From positions 1 to 61,789 of the forward strand of contig JAJVHV010000028.1 of the NCBI GenBank assembly GCA_022072445.1: a DNA stretch of 61,789 nucleotides, written 5' to 3'. Origin of the DNA: Phycisphaerae bacterium. Its GTDB lineage: Bacteria > Planctomycetota > Phycisphaerae > UBA1845 > Fen-1342. This document shows positions 1-61,705 of this stretch, one piece after another. The first letter of the stretch is position 1, and every line of letters begins with the position of its first letter. Position numbers and translations under genes: made by a program. Under the pieces are notes generated by a model that saw nothing but the letters and a program-made list of their open reading frames with translations, searched no databases and was not told the origin of the DNA.

Positions 1-840
1 CGCGGGGCTAAGAAACCGCTTCCTTACGGTCGCGGCTCGGACAGGCGCGGGCGCGGCTCGATCGCGCGGCGCGGCGCGGATCGCGCGGCGCGGCTCGGAT
101 CGCGCGGCGCGGCGCGGATCGCGCGGCGGCCGGAACCGAGCCGCGCGCGTCAGCAAGCGGTTTCCTGGCCGAGCCGGAGCGCGAGCGGCGGTCGAAGGGT
201 CCGCGCGCGGGGCTAAGAAACCGCTCCCTTACGGTCGCGGCTCGGATCGCGCGGCGCGGCGCGGATCGCGCGGGGCTGGAACCGAGCCGCGCGCGTCAGC
301 AAGCGGTTTCCTGGCCGAGCGGGAGTGCGAGCGGCGGTCGAAGGGTCCGCGCGCGGGGCTAAGAAACCGCTCCCTTACGGTCGCGGCTCGGACAGGCGCG
401 GGGCAGCTCGGACAGGCGCGGGCGCGGCGCGGATCGCGCTGTCGCGGCGCGGATCGCGCGGGGCTGGAACCGAGCCGCGCGCGTCAGCAAGCGGTTTCCT
501 GGCCGAGCCGGAGTGCGAGCGGCGGTCGGAGGGTCCACGCGCGGGGCTAAGAAACCGCTCCCTTACGGTCGCGGCTCGGATCGCGCGGCGCGGCTCGGAT
601 CGCGCTGTCGCGGCGCGGATCGCGCGGGGCGGCTCGGACAGGCACGTGCGCGGCTCGGACAGGCACGGTCGCGGCGCGGATCGCGCGGGGCTGGAACCGA
701 GCCGCGCGCGTCAGCAAGCGGTTTCCTGGCCGAGCCGGAGTGCGAGCGGCGGTCGGAGGGTCCACGCGCGGGGCTAAGAAACCGCTCCCTTACGGTCGCG
801 GCTCGGATCGCGCGGCGCGGCGCGGATCGTGCGGGGCGGC
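1..840. repeat. Mosaic of GC-rich repeats in alternating orientation (BIME-like)
   Basis: No credible gene lies here. A motif beginning aagaaaccgct and ending cgcggctcgg occurs in direct orientation near 10, 215, 361, 549 and 776. Its diverged reverse complement (ccgagccgcgcgcgtcagca followed by agcggttt) occurs near 132, 269, 466 and 690. The order is strictly direct-inverted-direct throughout. Spacers are made of gcgcggatcgcgcgg-type filler. Alternating orientation is the layout of bacterial interspersed mosaic elements built from REP sequences. The long open frames across it are a by-product of stop-poor GC-rich repeats. The same motif is found inside the kinase gene at 20478-20515. Confidence 0.85.
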
Positions 841-19427: not shown

Positions 19428-19450
19428 GTGCTTTTTGTCACGGACGGCCC

Positions 19451-19566
19451 GACTCCGCCCAGCGCAAAGTGTCTGGCCTGACTCCGCCCAGCGCGGAGTG
19501 TCTGGCCTGACTCCGCCCAGCGCAAAGTGTCTGGCCTGACTCCGCCCAGCGCGGAGTGTCTGGCTT
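19451..19566. repeat. Four 29-bp tandem repeats
   Basis: Units of 29 bp start gactccgcccagcgc and end gtgtctggcct. Copies alternate between caaag and cggag at positions 15-19. There are no spacers, so this is not CRISPR. It lies immediately upstream of the TPR-kinase promoter region. Confidence 0.9.
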
Positions 19567-19645
19567 GACTCGGCCGGCGGCAAACACTGCGCGCCGCGCG
19601 GGCTGGCATCGGGTATTCTGGTCGGCGTTCGCGAGGCCACGTCTC

Positions 19646-44866: not shown

Positions 44867-46414
44867 TCAGGGGAAGCGCCGAAGCCGCTTGCTGGAGCGA
44901 AAGCGGCTGCCGAGCGTGCGGCGGATCGGGCGCAGGCCCAGCGACTCGAAGACATCATCGCGGCGGAGCGCCTCGGTCAGGCGCGAGCCGGCGCGGGCCG
45001 CTTCGGGCTCGGCGGCGGGCAGCAGAGCCCCGGCCTCGTCGCCGCGCGGCTTGTGGTCGGGCGCGCGGCGCCCGTGCCCGCGCTCGCCGTGCTCGCGATG
45101 GGCGTGGTCGCGCCGGACAACCCACGGCCCTTCCAGCCGCGGCAACTCCTTGTTGATGTGCATCTCGATCGCCGTCAGCATCTTGCCCTGGTCGGGCGAG
45201 ACCAGCGTGACCGCAAATCCGCTGCGCCCCATCCGCGCCGTGCGGCCCACGCGATGCACGTAAACCGACGGATCCTGCGGAACGTCGTAGTTCACGATGT
45301 GCGACACTTCCATCACGTCGATGCCGCGCGAGGCCAGATCGGTCGCCACCAGCACCTGAATCTGGGCGGTGCGAAAACTCTCCATGACGCGCTCTCGCCG
45401 ATTCTGCATCAGGTCGCCGTGAATCTCTTTACACTTCACGCCGGCTTCCTTGAGCCGCTTGCCGATCCGCTGCGCGCCGGCTTTCGTGTTCGTGAAGACG
45501 ATCGCCAACGTCGGGTTCTCATGCTTGAGAAAACCGAGCAGCGTCGGAAACTTGTCGTGCGGATCGACCGTCACAAAGCCTTGCTCGATCGACTCGACCG
45601 TCAGCACGTCGCGCGAAACGTTCACCTCCACCGGTTCGCGCATGAACGACTTCGCCAGCTTGCGAATCTCCTCGTCCAGCGTCGCCGACACGAAAATCGT
45701 CTGCCGCTCCGCCGATATGTCACGCAGAATGCGGCGGATGTCGTCGCGAAAACCGATGTCCAGCATGCGGTCCACTTCATCGAGCACCGCGATGCGCACG
45801 CCCCCGAGATTGAGGTTGCCGCGCCGCATCATGTCGAGGATGCGGCCCGGCGTCCCGATCACGACCTCCGGGTGCTTCTCCATCTGCTTGACCTGCGTGC
45901 TGATCCGCCGGCCGCCATAGAACAGCGCGACCTTCAGCGGATGACGCTTGCCGAGCTGGCTGAAATGTTCGTCGACCTGCATCGCCAGCTCGCGCGTCGG
46001 CACCAGCACCAGCGCCTGGACCCCGCCACCCACCGCCGTCCGTTGCAGGATGGGCAGCGCGAAGGCGGCGGTCTTGCCGGTGCCGGTCTTGGCAAGGCCG
46101 ATGCAATCCTTGCCCTGCAGGGCAACGGGGATGAGGGCGTGCTGGATTTCGGTCGGCGTGTGAAAGCCGAGTTCATCCAGGCCGTCGAGGAGCGACTGCT
46201 GAAGGCCCAGCGCTCGAAACGTGGGAACCGGGCCGGCGGACTCTGGCGCGTGCGCAGCGGCTTCGGGAATCGGCCCTGCGGCTTCGGCCGCCGGGGTGAG
46301 CGGGTCAGCGTCGGGTGCGTCGGGCGGGACAGGCGATCGGGGACGGCGTATTTTCTGGGTCAATTTGGCTCTTGATCGTTCGATTGCGATACTCGTCGCG
46401 GAAGCTCCCGACAC
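44867..46414 (-). CDS. DEAD-box RNA helicase (motif II DEVD)
   Basis: A 515-residue RNA helicase. Residues 1-65 are a Pro/Ala-rich leader. Q motif F-x-x-LGLQQSLLDGL with GFHTPTEIQ. Motif I AKTGTGKT. Ia PTRELA. II is DEVD rather than DEAD. III SAT. V ATDLASRGID. VI HRVGRTARMG. The C-terminal ~120 residues are His/Arg-rich (HAHREHGERGHGRR) and basic, typical of RNA-binding tails. DEVD retains both metal-binding acids, so activity is expected. The start is GTG 46414, the only start before the domain, with aaggg upstream. Confidence 0.92.
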   Translation of the reverse strand: MSGASATSIAIERSRAKLTQKIRRPRSPVPPDAPDADPLTPAAEAAGPIPEAAAHAPESAGPVPTFRALGLQQSLLDGLDELGFHTPTEIQHALIPVALQGKDCIGLAKTGTGKTAAFALPILQRTAVGGGVQALVLVPTRELAMQVDEHFSQLGKRHPLKVALFYGGRRISTQVKQMEKHPEVVIGTPGRILDMMRRGNLNLGGVRIAVLDEVDRMLDIGFRDDIRRILRDISAERQTIFVSATLDEEIRKLAKSFMREPVEVNVSRDVLTVESIEQGFVTVDPHDKFPTLLGFLKHENPTLAIVFTNTKAGAQRIGKRLKEAGVKCKEIHGDLMQNRRERVMESFRTAQIQVLVATDLASRGIDVMEVSHIVNYDVPQDPSVYVHRVGRTARMGRSGFAVTLVSPDQGKMLTAIEMHINKELPRLEGPWVVRRDHAHREHGERGHGRRAPDHKPRGDEAGALLPAAEPEAARAGSRLTEALRRDDVFESLGLRPIRRTLGSRFRSSKRLRRFP

Positions 46415-46898: not shown

Positions 46899-47060
46899 GG
46901 GCCACCTCCGGCTCGTCGGAGATTGTACGTTGTGACCGAAGCCGATGAAAGCACGCCAAGCCCTGAGCGACGCAGGCGAAACGCGTTCCCAGCCGGGCGG
47001 GCCCAAAGTCGTGTGGATGTCTTGGCGAACGTCGCTGGCGTTCGCGGGGGAGCGGGGTGC

Positions 47061-47745
47061 GATGCTCCGAGTTCGAAGGCGCACTCCGTCCGGACCCCTC
47101 CCTCACGGTCGGGGCTCGGTTGGGCGCGCCCTTCGTGGTCGGGGCGCGGCTGGGCGCGGCGTGCGATGCTCCGAGTTCGAAGGCGCACTCCGTCCGGACC
47201 CCTCCCTCACGGTCGGGGCTCGGCTGGGCGCGCCCTTCACGGTCGGGGCTCGGTTGGGCGCGCCCTTCGTGGTCGGGGCTCGGCCGGGCGCGGCGTGCGA
47301 TGCTCCGAGTTCGAAGGCGCACTTCGTCTGGACCCCTCCCTCACGGTCGGGGCTCGGCCGGGCGCGCCCTCCGTGGTCGGGGCTCGGCCGGGCGCGGCGT
47401 GCGATGCTCCGAGTTCGAAGGCGCACTCCGTCCGGACCCCTCCCTCACGGTCGGGGCTCGGCTGGGAGCGGCGTGCGATGCTCCGAGTTCGAAGGCGCAC
47501 TCCGTCCGGACCCCTCCCTCACGGTCGGGGCTCGGCTGGGCGCGCCCTTCGTGGTCGGGGCTCGGTTGGGCGCGCCCTTCTTGGTCGACGCTCGGCTGGG
47601 AGCGGCGTGCGATGCTCCGAGTTCGAAGGCGCACTCCGTCCGGACCCCTCCCTCACGGTCGGGGCTCGGCTGGGCGCGCCCTTCACGGTCGGGGCTCGGC
47701 TGGGCGCGCCCTTCGCGGTCGGGGCGCGGCTGGGGACGCGAATTG
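47061..47745. repeat. Nested tandem array: 74-bp core plus 0-2 copies of a 30-bp unit
   Basis: The phrase gatgctccgagttcgaaggc recurs at 47061, 47165, 47299, 47403, 47477 and 47611. The spacings are 104, 134, 104, 74 and 134 bp, exactly 74 + 0, 1 or 2 x 30. The 30-bp unit is tcggggctcggctgggcgcg followed by cccttcgtgg, and its relatives occur at 15.9 kb and 17.8 kb. Several frames stay open throughout, which creates misleading long frames on both strands. There is no gene here. Confidence 0.93.
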
Positions 47746-47769: not shown

Positions 47770-48510
47770 CTACTTCTTCGACGACATCTTCGCCAGCAGC
47801 CGCAGAATCTCCAGGTACAGCCACACCAGCGTCACCATCAGCCCGAACGACGCGTACCACTCCATGTATTTGGGCGCCCCGCGGCGTACGCCGTTTTCGA
47901 TCAGGTCGAAATCCAGCACCAGGTTCAAGGCGGCGATGCCGACCACGATCAGGCTGAAGGCGATGCCCATCGGACCGGCGCTGTGGATCAGAGGCACCGT
48001 GACGCCAAACAGATTGCAGACGATCGAGACCACGTAATACAGCGCGATCGCCCCGGTCGCGGCGAACACGCCCAGCTTGAAATTCTCCGTCGCGCGGATC
48101 AGCCCCGACGTGTACGCCACCAGCAGGCAGCCCATCGTACCAAACGTGAGCGAGATCGCCGGAATGACGATGCCCGGAAACCTCGCCTCGAACATCGCCG
48201 AAATGCCGCCCAGCGCCAGCCCCTCGAGCACCGCGTAAATCGGCGCGGTGATGGGCGCGCTGGTCATGCTGAAGCTGGTAATCATCGCGACGATAAACCC
48301 GGCCAGGGCGCCGCCGATCATCCACGGCTGCGCCGCGGCGAAACCCGCCGCGTAAAACCGCTGCCACGTAAACGCCGCGGCGAGCACGCACAGACCGAGC
48401 AGGATGGCGGTCTTGTTGATCGTGCCCTGCAACGTCATCACGTCGCCTTCGCGTGTGACGGAAAGGCCGTCAAACGTCTTTTCGTTCAGCGTGGGGTTGC
48501 CGCTCCGCAT
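47770..48510 (-). CDS. Bax inhibitor-1/YccA-like membrane protein
   Basis: A 246-residue integral membrane protein with seven hydrophobic segments. MRSGNPTLNEKTF at the start is typical of the family's N-terminus, and APIYAVLEGLALGGISAMFEA is the conserved core. The related YbhL/YetJ proteins act as pH-sensitive calcium leaks. The start is ATG 48510 with gggaga upstream. The 3' end abuts the tandem array. PEP-CTERM genes lie upstream on the same strand. Confidence 0.9.
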   Translation of the reverse strand: MRSGNPTLNEKTFDGLSVTREGDVMTLQGTINKTAILLGLCVLAAAFTWQRFYAAGFAAAQPWMIGGALAGFIVAMITSFSMTSAPITAPIYAVLEGLALGGISAMFEARFPGIVIPAISLTFGTMGCLLVAYTSGLIRATENFKLGVFAATGAIALYYVVSIVCNLFGVTVPLIHSAGPMGIAFSLIVVGIAALNLVLDFDLIENGVRRGAPKYMEWYASFGLMVTLVWLYLEILRLLAKMSSKK

Positions 48511-50596: not shown

Positions 50597-52159
50597 ATGA
50601 GCGACCTCGGCCACAACGACCTGCTCCGCGGCTGCGAGCACGTGTTCACCGACGCCGAGCTGCGCGAGCGGCTGGAAAAGGCCCACAAGCTCGGCCACCA
50701 GCTCCGCGTCAAGCTCGGCATGGACCCCACCGCGCCCGACATCCACCTCGGCCACACCGTCGTCCTGCGAAAAATGCGACAGTTTCAGGACCTCGGCCAC
50801 AAGGCTGTGCTCATCATCGGCGACTTCACCAGCCGCATCGGCGACCCCACCGGCCGCAGCAAGACGCGGCCCGTGCTGACCGACGCCGAGATCGAGGCCA
50901 ACGCGCAGACCTACTTGCAGCAGGCCGGCCGCGTGCTCGACACGTCGGCCGACAAACTGGAGCTGCGGCACAACTCCGAGTGGCTCGGCAAGATGAATTT
51001 CGCCGACGTGATCCGTCTGGCCGGCAAGATGACCGTCGGCCAGATGCTGAAGCGCGAGGACTTCCGCAAACGCTTCGAATCCGAAACGCCGATCAGCGTG
51101 CACGAACTGCTCTACCCGCTCGCGCAGGGTTGGGACTCCGTCAACATCCATTCCGACGTCGAGCTCGGCGGCACCGACCAGACCTACAACAACCTGGTCG
51201 GCCGCGACCTCCAGATCGACGCCGGCCAGCCGCCGCAGATCGTCATGATCATGCCCATCCTGCGCGGGCTGGACGGCGAAAAGAAAATGTCCAAGAGCTT
51301 GGGCAACTACATCGGCGTGACCGATCCGCCGCGCGACGTGTTCGGCAAGACGATGAGCATCCCCGATGCGCTGCTGGAGGAGTGGTTCCGCCTGCTGACC
51401 GACGTGCCCGAAGCCGATTATCGCGCCCGCATCGCCGATCATCCCATGAAAGCCAAGGATTTCCTGGCGCGCAAGATCGGCGCGCGACTCTACAGCGCGG
51501 CGGAAATGGAGGACGCCGCGGCCTGGTGGCACGACTCCTTCGGTGGCGGCAAGCGCAAGTCCGCCGGCACTACCGCCGCGGCCAACCCCGGCGACCTGGT
51601 CCAGGTCCGCATCCCGCCGGCGGAGCTGAACGCCGACGGCACGATCGCGGCCTGGAAGCTCTGCTGGCTGGCGCACGACCAGGAAATCAGCAAATCCGAA
51701 GCGCGGCGCATGGTGGAGGGCGGTGCGTTCGAACTTGTGGCACAGCCGCCCTCGGCTGTGACCTCTCCGCCCTCTCCTGTGGCACAGCCGCCCTCGGCTG
51801 TGGCCGCGCCAGCCGCACCTGTGGCACAGCCGCCCTCGGCTGTGACCTCTCCGCCCTCTCCTGTGGCACAGCCGCCCTCGGCTATGGCCGCGCCAGCCCC
51901 ATCCGAACCCCCCGCGCCAGCCCCATCCGAACCCCCCGCGACAGCGGGGGGTCCGAACGCGAACACCGCCCCAATTCCCGGCACGTCCGCCGTCGGGAAA
52001 GTCACCGACCCGAACGCCCCCATCTGCCCCGTCCCCGGCACGCAATTCAAAGCCGGCCGCCACCGTAAAGGCGAACGCGTCAAGCAGCCGCTGATGGCGG
52101 TGATTGCCACCGCGCGAGTGGTGGGTGCAGCCGCCCCGCACTCGCGTGCGGGGTTCTGA
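50597..52159 (+). CDS. tyrS: Tyrosyl-tRNA synthetase with repeat array in the S4 domain
   Basis: A 520-residue cytosolic enzyme. Typical TyrRS has about 400-425 residues. HIGH motif H50-L-G-H. KMSKS at 230-234. QIVMIMPILRG precedes it. The C-terminal S4 tRNA-binding domain begins QEISKSEARRMVEGGAFEL and should continue with a strand leading to VTDPNAPICPVPGTQF. Instead, ~87 codons from V381 are inserted: four VAQPPSAV units spaced exactly 14 residues apart, then Pro/Ala-rich sequence. The final VVGAAAPHSRAGF and the stop come from another repeat (52118-52158). All in frame. Catalytic core intact, so probably active. Confidence 0.95.
   Translation: MSDLGHNDLLRGCEHVFTDAELRERLEKAHKLGHQLRVKLGMDPTAPDIHLGHTVVLRKMRQFQDLGHKAVLIIGDFTSRIGDPTGRSKTRPVLTDAEIEANAQTYLQQAGRVLDTSADKLELRHNSEWLGKMNFADVIRLAGKMTVGQMLKREDFRKRFESETPISVHELLYPLAQGWDSVNIHSDVELGGTDQTYNNLVGRDLQIDAGQPPQIVMIMPILRGLDGEKKMSKSLGNYIGVTDPPRDVFGKTMSIPDALLEEWFRLLTDVPEADYRARIADHPMKAKDFLARKIGARLYSAAEMEDAAAWWHDSFGGGKRKSAGTTAAANPGDLVQVRIPPAELNADGTIAAWKLCWLAHDQEISKSEARRMVEGGAFELVAQPPSAVTSPPSPVAQPPSAVAAPAAPVAQPPSAVTSPPSPVAQPPSAMAAPAPSEPPAPAPSEPPATAGGPNANTAPIPGTSAVGKVTDPNAPICPVPGTQFKAGRHRKGERVKQPLMAVIATARVVGAAAPHSRAGF
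51737..51886. repeat. 42-bp tandem array of cacagcc palindromes in tyrS
   Basis: gtggcacagccgccctcggc at 51737, 51779, 51821 and 51863: four copies, exactly 42 bp apart. Stem ggcacagcc/ggctgtg(g). The inter-unit segments alternate between acctctccgccctctcct and a gccgcgccagccgc type. It encodes VAQPPSAV each time. Confidence 0.93.
52118..52158. repeat. Palindromic repeat giving the end of tyrS
   Basis: gtggtgggtgcagccgcccc then gcactcgcgtgcggggttct, followed by gataag. Relative of 19355-19427. Its tga is the tyrS stop codon (52157-52159). Confidence 0.8.
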
Positions 52160-56398: not shown

Positions 56399-59300
56399 AT
56401 GTTTCAGCCGTTGCCGAGCAAATTCGACTTCCCCGAATCTGAGAAGCGCGTGCTCGAATTCTGGCGGCAGCACGACGTCTTCAACGAATCGCTGCGGCAG
56501 CGCGCCGCCGCCCCGCGCTTCGTCTTTTACGAGGGCCCACCGACCGCCAATGGCCTGCCGCACCCGGGCCACTGCCTGACGCGCGTCATGAAGGACATCT
56601 TCCCGCGCTACAAGACCATGCGCGGCTTCCTGGTCGAGCGCAAGGGCGGCTGGGACACGCACGGGCTGCCGGTCGAGCGTGAGGTCTGCAAAGAGCTGAC
56701 CGCCGAGCTCGGCCGCCCGATGCACACCAAGCAGGACATCGAGGCCTACGGCGTCGAGAAGTTCAACCTCAAGTGCATCCAGAGCGTCTTCCGCTATACG
56801 CGCGAATGGGAGGAGATGACTCGCCGGCTGGCGTACTGGGTCGATCTGAAGGAGGCGTACGTCACGTTTCATCAGTCGTATGTCGAGAGCGTCTGGTGGT
56901 CGCTCAAGACGCTCTTCGAACACCGCGACGCGCACGGCCGGCCCGATCCGCTGCTCTACCTGGGGCACAAGGTGGTCTGGTGGTGGGCGCAAGGCGGCAC
57001 GGCGCTCTCCAGCGGCGAGGTCGGCGAGGGCTATCGCACGGTCGACGATCCGTCGGTATTCGTGAAATTCCCGATTCCGGGGAGCATCGGCGTCCCGCCG
57101 GTGCCGAGCGCCCAATCACCGGGGAGCATCGGCGTCCCGCCGGTATCGAGCGCCCAATCACCGGGGAGCATCGGCGTCCCGCCGGTATCGAGCGCCCAAT
57201 CACCGGGGAGCATCGGCGTCCCGCCGGTTCCGAGCGCCCAATCACCGGGGAGCATCGGCGTCCCGCCGGTTCCGAGCGCCCAATCACCGGGGAGCATCGG
57301 CGTCCCGCCGGTACCGAGCGCCCAATCGACGGGGAGCATCGGCGTCCCGCCGGTATCGAGTATGCCATCGACGGGGAGCATCGGCGTCCCGCCGGTATCG
57401 AGTATGCCATCGACGGGGAGCATCGGCGTCCCGCCGGTACCGAGCGCCCAATCACCGGGGAGCATCGGCGTCCCGCCGGTACCGAGCGCCCAATCACCGG
57501 GGAGCATCGGCGTCCCGCCGGTACCGAGCGCGCCATCACCCGGGAGCATCGGCGTCCCGCCGGTGTCGAGTATGCCATCGACGGGGAGCATCGGCGTCCC
57601 GCCGGTGTCGAGTATGCCATCGACGGGGAGCATCGGCGTCCCGCCGGTGCGTACTCCGGAATCCGGGCATCGCGGCGTCCTGAAGTCAAGAGTCGGCCCG
57701 ACACTTTCAACGCGCTCGCGCATTCTGCCGCATTGGGAATCTGGCGGCAGCACCTATTTCTTCACGTTTCGCCTCCTCGGCGGCGAACTAACCGACGACG
57801 AGCGCACGATCGTCCTGAACGCGTGTCAACATTGGGATTCTCAACGAATCCTTCTACACGCTGCGGTCGTGATGCCTGATCACGCGCACGTGCTTTGCAC
57901 GCCGCTTGAAAAATCGAAGGGCGAATGGTGGTCCATCGCGGATTTGATGCACAGCATCAAGGGATTTTCGGCGAAAGAGATCAACCGGTTGCGAGGTACG
58001 AGCGGACTCGTGTGGCAGCGCGAGTATTACGACCGGATCATTCGATCGCCGGACGACTTCGAGGAGAAATGGAACTACATCGTTACGAACCCGGTCCGTC
58101 GGGGGTTGCCCGAAACGTATCCATGGGTTTGGGTCGAAGTCAGCCACGCCCGATCACCGGGGAGCATCGGCGTCCCGCCGGTGAACTCAGGTGAGGTTTC
58201 GCACCGGCGAGACGCCGATGCTCCCCATTCGCTCTCGCATCAACAGCCAGCAACGTCCGAACAAACGCAAATGCTCGCGCACCGGCGAGACGCCGATGCT
58301 CCCCGTCGCGTTTCCCTCCTCGTCTGGACCACAACACCCTGGACGCTGGTCAGCAACCACTTCGCCGCCGTGCATCCCGATCTCGAGTACGCGCTGGTCC
58401 ACGACCCGGTCGATGACGAGCATCTTTACATCGCGGCGGCGCTCGTCGAAACGATCGCGAAGAAGGTCAAGCGCGAGCTGCGCGTCGTCGCGACCTGCAA
58501 AGGCGTCGACCTCGTCGGACTCGCCTATCTCCCGCCATTCCCCGAAGTCTACCACGACGCCATGCACGCCCGCCGTGCCGCGTTGACAACCGGCGGGGAG
58601 GCGTCGATCGGCTGGCGTGTCACCGCGGCGGACTTTGTCACGATCGAGAGTGGCAGCGGGCTGGTACACGAGGCGCCGGCCTTCGGCGAAGTCGACTTCA
58701 ACCTGCTTCAGCAGGAGCGCGAGCGGTTCATCGACCGCGACGCGATCCGGCTGATCTGCGCGGTCGCACCCGATGGAAGTTTCAACGACGAAGCCCCGCA
58801 GCGCTACCGCGGCCGCTGGGTCAAGGATTGCGACAAGGAGATCGTCCGCGAACTGCGCGACGAGCGCAAAACGCCCTGGGGCACGCCGCTGCTCTATCAC
58901 CAGGAGCAATACCGCCACGATTATCCCTTCTGCCCGCAGTCGCCCGACGACCCGCTCATCCAGTACGCCCGCAAAGGCTGGTTCGTCCGCACGTCGCAGT
59001 TCAAGGACGAGTTCCTGAAGAACAACGCCGGCGTCAACTGGCTGCCCGAGCACATCAAGGAAGGCCGCTTCGGCGACTTTCTGCGGAACAACGTCGATTG
59101 GGCGCTGTCGCGCGAGCGCTACTGGGGCACGCCGCTGCCGATCTGGGTCTGCGAGGCGTGCGGCAACATGGAGGCGATCGGCTCGTTCGCCGAACTGCAA
59201 AGCAAGCCCGGCGCGACCGACGCGTCGCCGGAGTATCCGCAGGGATACTGGAACGCAAAAGTCGCCGAGCACAAGGGCGAGGAGTTTCCGGCGCATCTGC

Positions 59301-61303
59301 GCGTACACAAGCCGTATATCGATGAGTGGCGGTACCGCTGCGCGGCTTGCGAGGGAGCAGGGAACAGGGAACAGGGAACAGAAGGGACGCAGGGACGCAG
59401 GGACGCAGGGACGAAGGAAAACCTCAGCATGCGGCGGGTGCCGGAGGTCATCGACTGCTGGTGGGATGCGGGCAGCATGCCCTTTGCGCAGTGGGGATTT
59501 CCGCACGCAGACGGAAGCGCCGCGCTGTTCGAGCAGCGCTTTCCGGCCGATTTCATCAGCGAGGCGATCGATCAGACGCGCGGGTGGTTTTATGGACTGC
59601 TGGCGATCTCGACGCTCCTGTTCAATCACCGCGACGCCGCCACGAGTCTGGCGACCGGGGCGCTCGCCATAACCCCCGGCGGGCCGGACACGCGCGTGGC
59701 GCACCGTGGCGGCGTGTTGGCGCCGTACCGTTTCGCGGAGCGCGCGCAATACCCGCTTCCATTCCGCACCTGCATCGTCCTCGGCCACATCATGGGCGAG
59801 GACGGCAACAAGATGTCCAAGAAGCTCCGCAACTACAAGGAGCCGTCGTACATCTTCGACACGCTCGGGGCGGATGCGATGCGCTGGTATTTCCTGAGCG
59901 CTCAGGCCCCCTGGACCAGCACGCGCTTCGCCGAAGCCGCCATCCGCGACAGCCAGCGCGAGTTTCTCGTGAAACTCTACAACGTCATGAGCTTCTTCAC
60001 CATCTACGCCAGCATCGACGGATTCGACCCGCGCCGCCGCGACGAACCCGGCAACCCCATGGCCTGGCGGCCCACCGAACAGCGCGGCGAGCTCGACCGC
60101 TGGATCGTCACCGAACTCCGCCGCACCATCGCCGCCGCCCGCGAATCCATGGACCGCTTCGAGAACTACCCCGCGGCTCAGCGGCTCAACGACTTTGTCG
60201 ACGCGCTCAGCAACTGGTACGTCCGGCGATCCAGGGATCGTTTCTGGCGGCCGTTCGAGGGCGCGAAACCGCGCAGCCGCGAAGCCAGACAGGGAATGGC
60301 GAATGGCGCTGTCGCCGAACCCTTCAAGGCTTCGTCGCTTCGTGGCTCCGTGGCTGATTCCGACCAGGAAAAGTGGGACGCCTACCACACGCTCTACGGC
60401 TGCCTCCGAACGCTCAGCCGCCTGATCGCACCCTTCACGCCGTTCTTCGCCGAGACCATGCACCAGTATTTGCGGGTCACCGCCGATCCACTCTCGGTGC
60501 ACTTGTGCGACTATCCCGCACCGGACGACGTGACGTATCACGATGACGACCTCGCCGCGACGATGGAGACCGTCCGCGACCTCGTCACGCTCGGCCGGGC
60601 GGCCCGGGCCGGAGCCAAGCTCAAGGTGCGCCAGCCTCTCGCGCTGGTCGAGCTGATCCTGGCGCGGCCCGGCGAGGCCGGCGCCATCCGCGATCACGCC
60701 GCCCTGATTTCCGAAGAGCTGAACGTCAAGCGCGTCGAACTCGTCGACGAGGCCGATAAGTACGTCACCTACAAGGTCGTGCCGAACTTCAAGGCGATTG
60801 GCGCCAAGTTCCGAGAGCTCGTACCGAAACTGAAGGAAGCGCTCGGCAGAATCTCCGACGCCGCCGCCGCCCGGCGGGCCCTGCTGGAGACCGGTTCGCT
60901 GCCGGTCGCGCTCGGCGATCAGACTTTGCACCTTACGGTCGAAGAAGTCGAAATCCGTCTCGAGGCCAAGCCAGGCTGGTCGGCGGCACAGGGCAAGGCC
61001 GGCGTGGTCGTGGTCAGCACCGAGCTTACGCCGGAACTGATCGACGAGGGACTGATCCGCGAGCTGATTCACCATGTCCAGGCGCTGCGCAAGGAGCGCG
61101 AGCTGGCGTACGAGGCGCGAATCGTGCTGTTCATCGAAACCTCGCCCGAATTCAGGCGTGTCGTCGACCGATTCGCCGAGATCGTCCGCGGCGAGTGCCT
61201 CGTGCGGCGGATCGAGTGGTCCGTCCCCGCCGGGGAAAGCTGCGTCGAGGTGCAGGTCGATCGCCACTCCGCTCGCCTGGCGCTGCGAACGGAAGAGAGC
61301 TGA
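56399..61303 (+). CDS. ileS: Isoleucyl-tRNA synthetase carrying an in-frame RAYT transposase and repeat insertions
   Basis: A 1634-residue protein. Normal IleRS of this class has about 1050-1150. Catalytic HIGH equivalent: GPPTANGLPHPGHCLTR. KMSKS equivalent: KMSKK. CP1 editing domain begins near 205 (VFVKFPI) and resumes at LLVWTTTPWTL. Between them lies an insert of 412 codons (57077-58312): fourteen 14-residue GSIGVPPV units, a RAYT domain (442-580), then inverted repeats. Two smaller inserts: 26 codons of REQGTEGTQGRRDAG type at 59351-59428 and ~33 codons at 60262-60360. All keep the frame. ATG 56399 with ggag eight bases before. Essential core motifs are intact, so it is presumably active. 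Confidence 0.95.
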   Translation: MFQPLPSKFDFPESEKRVLEFWRQHDVFNESLRQRAAAPRFVFYEGPPTANGLPHPGHCLTRVMKDIFPRYKTMRGFLVERKGGWDTHGLPVEREVCKELTAELGRPMHTKQDIEAYGVEKFNLKCIQSVFRYTREWEEMTRRLAYWVDLKEAYVTFHQSYVESVWWSLKTLFEHRDAHGRPDPLLYLGHKVVWWWAQGGTALSSGEVGEGYRTVDDPSVFVKFPIPGSIGVPPVPSAQSPGSIGVPPVSSAQSPGSIGVPPVSSAQSPGSIGVPPVPSAQSPGSIGVPPVPSAQSPGSIGVPPVPSAQSTGSIGVPPVSSMPSTGSIGVPPVSSMPSTGSIGVPPVPSAQSPGSIGVPPVPSAQSPGSIGVPPVPSAPSPGSIGVPPVSSMPSTGSIGVPPVSSMPSTGSIGVPPVRTPESGHRGVLKSRVGPTLSTRSRILPHWESGGSTYFFTFRLLGGELTDDERTIVLNACQHWDSQRILLHAAVVMPDHAHVLCTPLEKSKGEWWSIADLMHSIKGFSAKEINRLRGTSGLVWQREYYDRIIRSPDDFEEKWNYIVTNPVRRGLPETYPWVWVEVSHARSPGSIGVPPVNSGEVSHRRDADAPHSLSHQQPATSEQTQMLAHRRDADAPRRVSLLVWTTTPWTLVSNHFAAVHPDLEYALVHDPVDDEHLYIAAALVETIAKKVKRELRVVATCKGVDLVGLAYLPPFPEVYHDAMHARRAALTTGGEASIGWRVTAADFVTIESGSGLVHEAPAFGEVDFNLLQQERERFIDRDAIRLICAVAPDGSFNDEAPQRYRGRWVKDCDKEIVRELRDERKTPWGTPLLYHQEQYRHDYPFCPQSPDDPLIQYARKGWFVRTSQFKDEFLKNNAGVNWLPEHIKEGRFGDFLRNNVDWALSRERYWGTPLPIWVCEACGNMEAIGSFAELQSKPGATDASPEYPQGYWNAKVAEHKGEEFPAHLRVHKPYIDEWRYRCAACEGAGNREQGTEGTQGRRDAGTKENLSMRRVPEVIDCWWDAGSMPFAQWGFPHADGSAALFEQRFPADFISEAIDQTRGWFYGLLAISTLLFNHRDAATSLATGALAITPGGPDTRVAHRGGVLAPYRFAERAQYPLPFRTCIVLGHIMGEDGNKMSKKLRNYKEPSYIFDTLGADAMRWYFLSAQAPWTSTRFAEAAIRDSQREFLVKLYNVMSFFTIYASIDGFDPRRRDEPGNPMAWRPTEQRGELDRWIVTELRRTIAAARESMDRFENYPAAQRLNDFVDALSNWYVRRSRDRFWRPFEGAKPRSREARQGMANGAVAEPFKASSLRGSVADSDQEKWDAYHTLYGCLRTLSRLIAPFTPFFAETMHQYLRVTADPLSVHLCDYPAPDDVTYHDDDLAATMETVRDLVTLGRAARAGAKLKVRQPLALVELILARPGEAGAIRDHAALISEELNVKRVELVDEADKYVTYKVVPNFKAIGAKFRELVPKLKEALGRISDAAAARRALLETGSLPVALGDQTLHLTVEEVEIRLEAKPGWSAAQGKAGVVVVSTELTPELIDEGLIRELIHHVQALRKERELAYEARIVLFIETSPEFRRVVDRFAEIVRGECLVRRIEWSVPAGESCVEVQVDRHSARLALRTEES
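57077..57655. repeat. Fourteen 42-bp REP-like tandem units in ileS
   Basis: Each unit contains ggggagcatcggcgtcccgc then cggtaccgagcgcccaat(ca) or cggtatcgagtatgccat(cg). Two alternating sub-types (SAQSP and SMPST in translation) occur in runs. The inner part (gcatcggcgtcccgccggtgc) is imperfectly self-complementary. The array is open in at least four of six frames. Confidence 0.95.
57722..58139 (+). mobile_element. REP-associated tyrosine transposase (RAYT) domain, in frame in ileS
   Basis: About 139 residues of Y1/HUH transposase sequence. HWESGGSTYFFTFRL begins the fold. LLHAAVVMPDHAHVL carries the HUH motif (H495 and H497 in IleRS numbering). A later WSIADLMHSIKGFSAKEINR and VWQREYYDRIIRSPDDF carry the tyrosine nucleophile (Y543 or Y544), followed by KWNYIVTNPVRRGL. 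There is no stop codon and no Met start before it. A GTG at 57648 is the only plausible internal start. REP-like repeats flank it on both sides, as in typical RAYT loci. Catalytic residues look intact, so it could still be active if folded or separately translated. Confidence 0.9.
58157..58304. repeat. Right flank of the RAYT unit: one direct and two inverted REP copies
   Basis: A direct copy at 58157-58182 and inverted copies (caccggcgagacgccgatgc then tcccc) at 58202-58226 and 58280-58304. The inverted copies carry tctcgcc where most left-flank copies have tcccgcc. Confidence 0.9.
59351..59428. repeat. Second ileS insertion (simple repeat)
   Basis: gagcagggaacagggaacag then aagggacgcagggacgcagg: two short simple repeats, 78 bp, exactly 26 codons. 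They lie between YRCAAC and MRRVPEVIDCW, a joint next to a zinc-finger-like segment. Confidence 0.82.
60262..60360. repeat. Third ileS insertion
   Basis: gcgcagccgcgaagccagac, gggaatggcgaatggcgctg and cttcgtcgcttcgtggctcc: three different simple repeats. The last is the reverse complement of the agccacggagccacg phrase in gcvP insertion 1. About 33 codons. Confidence 0.75.
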
Positions 61304-61705
61304 ACGAGTCCGAACCCCGACGCAAGTCAATTGGATCCGAACCCCCGACGCCAGTCGGGGGCCGACCCGCGAGGACGCTCTTCGCCCTGACAACCATCCT
61401 GACGCAATACGCCTGCCGCGCCTCCGACCCCTCACTCGCGTGAGGGGTTCGGAAGGGTCGACGCTCGTCGGGCGTCCCATCCGAACCCCCGACGCCAGTC
61501 GGGGGCCGACCGGCGAGGACGCTCTTCGCCCTGACAACCATCCTGACGCAATACGCCTGCCGCGCCTCCGACCCCTCACTCGCGTGAGGGGTTCGGATGC
61601 GTCAGCGATCCGGTCAGCGCTCGTCGGGCACCCGATCCGGTCAGCGCTCGTCGGACGGCCCGATCCGAACCCCCGACGCCAGTCGGGGGCCTCGACTTTG
61701 GCCCT
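61304..61705. repeat. Tandem 144-bp duplication built from palindromes
   Basis: The 113-bp block starting acccccgacgccagtcgggg at 61341 is repeated almost exactly at 61485 (period 144). Each holds the palindrome ccccgacgccagtcgggg and a gacccctcactcgcgtgagg hairpin. A third partial copy starts near 61669. Downstream of ileS, no gene. Confidence 0.9.

Follow-up and report, generated by a model that had tools for sequence, protein, structure and literature searches.

The nested array and its hairpin unit

The window analysed here, the whole stretch of 61,789 nucleotides, holds at 47058-47741 a repeat array that lies between a Bax inhibitor-1 like gene, whose stop codon is 28 bp from the array, and a DEAD-box RNA helicase gene on its other side. 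The array consists of six 44-bp heads (starting at 47058, 47162, 47296, 47400, 47474 and 47608), five of them identical and the sixth with 2 changes, followed by 2, 3, 2, 1, 3 and 3 thirty-bp modules, respectively. The distances from head to head, 104, 134, 104, 74 and 134 bp, equal 74 + 30 x (1, 2, 1, 0, 2), in agreement with the 74 + 30n rule that the first-pass annotation had read from the spacing. TRF returned periods of 30, 74, 104 and 134 bp within the array and a further one of 312 bp (93% matches), and a 274-nt pair within the array, 92% identical, lies at the same 312-bp offset; to the two levels of duplication that had been correctly recognized, these results add a third, of 312 bp. 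The features of the locus are as follows, a full REP being the complete hairpin unit and a half-REP the module that ends after the hairpin loop.

44867-46363, minus strand: DEAD-box RNA helicase gene, on the same strand as the Bax inhibitor-1 like gene
47058-47741, minus strand: nested head-to-tail REP array of 6 full REP units (74 bp) and 8 half-REP modules (30 bp)
47095-47119, minus strand: full REP hairpin 1 (CCGAG tag, CCCC/GGGG stem, GA/GA internal loop, CC/GG inner stem and GTGA loop)
47132-47161, minus strand: half-REP 30-bp module of unit 1
47137-47708, no strand: 312-bp duplication of second order, present in 1.8 copies with 93% matches
47199-47223, minus strand: full REP hairpin 2
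47236-47295, minus strand: two half-REP 30-bp modules of unit 2
47333-47357, minus strand: full REP hairpin 3
47370-47399, minus strand: half-REP 30-bp module of unit 3
47437-47461, minus strand: full REP hairpin 4, in the unit without a preceding half-REP (spacing 74)
47511-47535, minus strand: full REP hairpin 5
47548-47607, minus strand: two half-REP 30-bp modules of unit 5
47645-47669, minus strand: full REP hairpin 6
47682-47741, minus strand: two half-REP 30-bp modules of unit 6
47770-48510, minus strand: Bax inhibitor-1 like gene (PF12811, E 6.6e-77)

On the minus strand, which is also the transcript strand of the Bax inhibitor-1 like gene, each 74-bp unit contains one complete hairpin, CCCAGCCGAG-CCCC-GA-CC-GTGA-GG-GA-GGGG. 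In this element of about 40 nt, a 5' tag precedes an outer stem of 4 bp, which is separated by a GA/GA internal loop from an inner stem of 2 bp that carries the GTNA loop (consensus CCGAG-CCCC-GA-CC-GTNA-GG-GA-GGGG). The extra 30-bp module comprises an 8-nt flank, CCCAGCCGAG, and the 5' arm and loop (CCCCGACCGTNA), after which the next 8-nt flank stands in place of the 3' arm; that is, the module is a half-REP, stacked 5' of the full REP. The numeric rule follows from this layout, because a full REP with its spacer measures 74 bp and each half-REP adds 30 bp. The first-pass annotation had recognized neither the REP hairpin in the unit nor its half in the module, nor that the family is genome-wide. 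Folding of the entire 134-bp unit gave z -0.30 on the plus strand, which is not unusual, and z -2.87 on the minus strand, and single hairpins were therefore used for folding; as DNA these folded modestly better than shuffles, and RNA folds of the CCCC-stem class reached -18.6 to -21 kcal/mol (z -3 to -5).

The 30-bp module had been said to exist elsewhere, and half-REP runs were indeed found at C37 (9 x 30), C9:155.5 kb (6 x 30) and C9:152.8 kb (about 8 x 30), with a 28-bp version at C32:29 kb (6 x 28). Modules with matching end-points and differing 8-nt flanks occur at about five loci in all (C27, C37, C9 twice, C32), and either duplication directed by the hairpin or descent from a common half-REP could account for the similar end-points. 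The proposal that 30 bp represents three helical turns did not hold up: 74 locus-distinct spacings showed no 10.4-10.6-bp phasing (Rayleigh p 0.75-0.80), and the p of 0.017 obtained at 10.0 bp, one of six periods tried, is discounted as evidence. Separately, a second family of repeats is chimeric, the 5' half of the array's REP being fused in it to CATGAAGGCGAGCGAGGA (C8:148205-149088, C15:40.9-41.5 kb, C7:367 and others).

Several other identities for the array were considered and rejected. The intervals that a CRISPR array would have as spacers are repeats of the same REP unit; Rfam 15 gave no match to a known structured RNA, at gathering thresholds or at E up to 1; a protein-coding tandem repeat would be thrown out of frame by periods of 74, 104 and 134 bp, and a trained gene finder called no gene at the array; and no site resembling an intrinsic terminator lies within the array.

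A genome-wide hairpin family

The core CCCCTCCCTNNCGGTCGGGG has 199 exact matches in the 5.25-Mb genome, vs. 0 in the reversed control, and a strict structural motif, searched for in 1.4 Mb of the genome, has 207 copies there, again vs. 0 in the reversed control. Among the strict copies the outer stem is CCCC or CCGC and the inner stem CC or GC, and all four combinations are present (133, 33, 24 and 15 copies), so that the stems change in a compensating manner. When copies were picked solely by the tag, the first two stem bases and the loop, all six pairs were formed in 240 of 312, the two variable stem positions exchanging C-G for G-C (198/88 and 200/88). Covariation was scored on 54 distinct sequences of this genome and its relatives, and the score was 0.306; shuffles gave 0.094, with none of 500 as high, and sliding gave no more than 0.10. 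The 54 had been hand-picked from 88 distinct types by setting aside sequences unlike the element, namely half-REPs and hairpins of other stem design; this choice makes the covariation count lean towards structure and leaves the 240 of 312 unaffected.

Gene context was taken from six whole contigs (about 1.05 Mb), partly chosen for holding matches and including the window, in which 105 of 108 copies are intergenic. Where both neighbours of a locus were known (n = 26), they were convergent in 14 cases, in the same direction in 10 and divergent in 2, the convergent background being 124 of 743 gene pairs. The family thus favours the 3' ends of genes and avoids divergent promoters. Among the unidirectional loci of the six contigs, hairpin orientation was independent of the direction of the upstream gene.

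Arrays of the family mostly run head to tail, with periods typical of the locus (69, 68, 93, 107, 109, 142 and 148 bp, among others). Within an array, neighbouring copies have flanks that agree at 63% upstream and 85% downstream, vs. 31% and 42% between loci, which argues for local duplication after dispersal. Two further arrays lie in the window itself:

221-801, minus strand: sister-hairpin array (stem CCGC/GCGG), running in the direction of the contig end
15908-16113, plus strand: another array of the CCCC-class REP, 3 copies, 93-bp period

The window also has GC-rich tandem arrays that lack the REP hairpin, at 51736-51945, 19446-19575 and 61335-61597 (21/42/84 bp, 29/58 bp and 144 bp).

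The exact hairpin of the array was not found among 60 relatives; the sister class (CCGC/GCGG) is present in some of them and sparse across the phylum. For an empty-site comparison at the Bax-inhibitor locus, the sole family member with the gene (G015, 60% identity) had no such hairpin in the surrounding 3.7 kb, a result of no decisive weight at that identity. The internal loop of hairpins in relatives (e.g. L235, L237) was seen to vary in concert, as GA/GA, GC/AA or AA/GC, a pattern suggesting that the mismatches themselves are constrained. Tags in relatives read CAGAG, ACGAG or ACTAG, vs. CCGAG in this genome, the common part being the final AG.

RAYT transposases and their hairpins

The genome has ten Y1_Tnp matches, two of which are genes at C11 that each lie between inward-facing hairpins. 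Around one of these RAYTs the hairpins are of the array's own class (CCCC/GGGG), with an altered internal-loop base in the copy on one side; around the other they belong to the sister class (CCGC/GCGG). Across the genome and its relatives, an inward-facing hairpin pair within 250 bp was present at 11 of 23 homologous RAYT loci, vs. 0 of 23 in the reversed control, and absent at the other 12. The hairpins at these loci differ in sequence between genomes and keep their architecture, with a tag mostly ending in AG. H93 and H95 (HUH) and Y153 are kept in 23 of 23 aligned RAYT proteins, and the cognate transposase scores above the cut-off for Pfam Y1_Tnp (PF01797). Because the hairpin flanks RAYT genes, we take the transposase to be involved in the hairpin family.

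The C11 RAYTs would, by analogy, act on the CCGAG-hairpin family as the E. coli TnpA-REP does on REP; that enzyme cuts and joins single-stranded REP, and requires the tag and the stem mismatches (PMC8266576). In one group 3 system, with a CT-bearing substrate, strong selection was found solely for the last two letters of the tag (PMC8266576). The presence of two REP classes, CCCC-stem and CCGC-stem, around two RAYTs in one gene makes specificity testable.

The genome's remaining RAYTs have other repeats at their sides or no repeats at all. Two of them, at C1:68782-69126 (L114) and C18:5605-5946 (L115), lie between other inverted repeats, GGAATGTAGCCACGGGTG and GCAGCCCGAAGGGCTG, respectively. 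Several REP/RAYT systems thus coexist in the genome.

RAYTs within the frames of tRNA-synthetase genes and purH

Both cognate RAYTs are in frame within alaS (C11:68779-73830, L037:6780-11831, minus strand), the sole alaS gene, which encodes 1684 residues and whose frame is open through both hairpins; in translation the REPs inside it read EPxxDRKxxV and PLPHGRGS. G058 and G037 also have homologous RAYTs within alaS, as apparently do G034 and G059, judged by coordinates, and these RAYTs mostly occupy two positions of the profile, near 263 and near 378. In G015, one lies within a class I synthetase gene. Intragenic REPs have been described before, including within tRNA-synthetase genes (PMC3733652); in the literature searched we found no earlier description of whole RAYT genes within such frames. 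In-frame RAYTs in tRNA-synthetase genes could explain the housekeeping-like retention of RAYTs.

In this genome, two similar arrangements were seen outside alaS. An IleRS-like frame in the window (56399-61303, plus strand), open throughout, holds another RAYT at about 57650-58130, preceded by an array of GGGGAGCATCGGCGTC hairpins (13.6 x 42 bp) and set among the domains tRNA-synt_1, Anticodon_1 and DUF5915. A purH (AICARFT/IMPCHase) frame at C22 (L116:959-3763) holds a third kind of RAYT, flanked by other inverted repeats (GGTGTGGCACAGGCTAT).

Proposed origin of the array

A hairpin spread through the genome, inverted copies of it at RAYTs and local duplication together identify the array, with high confidence, as a REP cluster of a RAYT/TnpA-REP system that grew by tandem duplication. 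The hairpin family, its RAYT association, the local tandem growth and the half-REP layout are what the data show, and the following course of events is proposed to connect them. The RAYT would nick and join single-stranded REP DNA, so that single or paired hairpins reach new intergenic sites, and one REP copy would have landed behind the Bax-inhibitor gene before local growth. There the hairpin would have eased replication slippage or unequal recombination, which would then have made the array by duplicating the 5' half of the hairpin to its loop (30 bp), the whole REP with its spacer (74 bp) and a 312-bp block. Any present function would be secondary; the array might, for instance, act as an RNA barrier at the 3' end of the upstream transcript or be bound by a protein. 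The earlier suggestion of slippage or transposase-driven amplification therefore stands in part: flank similarity bears out local tandem duplication and the transposase is tied to the hairpin family, but there is no evidence that the transposase made the tandem copies. What had appeared as a numeric rule is explained by a REP family whose stem has an internal GA/GA mismatch, whose tag is relaxed and whose copies tend to form head-to-tail ladders.

The array might instead be an RNA element, its hairpins being 3' untranslated structures of the Bax-inhibitor transcript that were selected to end transcription or protect the message. Their placement on the transcript strand 28 bp past the stop codon would suit this, as would the stable RNA folds of the CCCC-stem class, a loop compatible with GNNA, the GA/GA internal loop and the preference of the family for 3' ends and convergent gene pairs. 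We nonetheless judge it unlikely, since orientation is independent of the upstream gene strand among unidirectional loci, the array has neither a T tract nor an intrinsic terminator-like site, Rfam gave no match, and an RNA function does not predict inverted hairpin pairs at transposase genes. Less probable still is that the regular array is an artefact of assembly, by repeat expansion or collapse. Arrays of the REP family do stand at the beginning of C7, C16, C25, C26 and the window's contig (position 1), and one array (C26) contains an N run; the array studied here is however internal to one contig with unique flanks on both sides, its copies carry many private differences, and the nested half-REP layout was found again at other loci. 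Contig ends inside such arrays, in an assembly of 50 contigs, mean that exact copy numbers are to be taken with caution.

For the 30-bp step within the REP cluster, an alternative to slippage is that the RAYT made it directly, by nicking and strand transfer at the 5' end of the element and at the boundary of loop and 3' arm. Half-REP runs have closely matching end-points, as 30-mers (C27, C37, C9 twice) or a 28-mer (C32), and in vitro TnpA-REP cleaves REPs on both their 5' and their 3' side and joins them again (PMC8266576). This route seems improbable to us, given that neither CT nor CA, the dinucleotides at which cutting is known (CA in one system; PMC8266576), stands at the module boundaries, that alike 8-nt starts mean that the modules may share descent rather than have arisen independently, and that slippage at a hairpin likewise predicts a break inside it. 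It is similarly doubtful that the RAYT persists in essential genes (alaS, IleRS-like, purH) as a passenger domain, in frame and free of stops, and that its enzyme builds fixed-end half-REP ladders, the nested 74 + 30n pattern being its nicking footprint.

Comparison with known systems

The system works like REP/BIME and fits REPs in the wide sense, as a short high-copy hairpin that is intergenic and rarely between divergent genes, with inverted copies flanking a RAYT; the predicted product of the cognate gene has the Y1_Tnp domain, HUH motif and catalytic tyrosine of RAYT/TnpA-REP proteins. A literature search for the hairpin sequence gave no match. With its CCGAG tag the family lies outside the GTAG super-family, defined by an unpaired GTAG at the 5' foot, and it likewise falls outside the CGTC super-family, defined by an unpaired CGTC at one end and no association with a transposase. 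It resembles CGTC-type REPs (PMC3733652) as a set of short palindromic dispersed repeats, some of them clustered, and differs from them in lacking the CGTC terminal tag and in its clear transposase association. TIRYT/TIRtrons (PMC3733652) similarly have RAYT-like genes between inverted repeats, but what flanks the gene here is one hairpin from a dispersed family rather than a long terminal inverted repeat; the other RAYT of the window, with its GGGGAGCA-type repeats, may be nearer to TIRYT/TIRtrons.

The likeness is to GTAG REP/BIME with RAYT (in particular the imperfect-stem 'group 2', as in Escherichia coli), which shares the short hairpin, the 5' tag ending in AG, the mismatched 2x2 internal loop, the high copy number, the intergenic/convergent bias and the inverted copies flanking an HUH/Tyr transposase gene. 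The AA/GC internal loop of some relatives is the mismatch quoted for E. coli REPs (PMC3733652). Unlike GTAG REPs, the hairpins here have an inner stem that is very short and bears a GTNA loop, and the cognate transposase sits in the frame of another gene. The family departs from described REPs in its xxAG tag (CGAG, CTAG or AGAG), in its half-REP modules with matching end-points, and in its abundant arrays, which mostly run head to tail with locus-specific periods, an order that is common here and was reported to be rare for REPs (PMC3733652).
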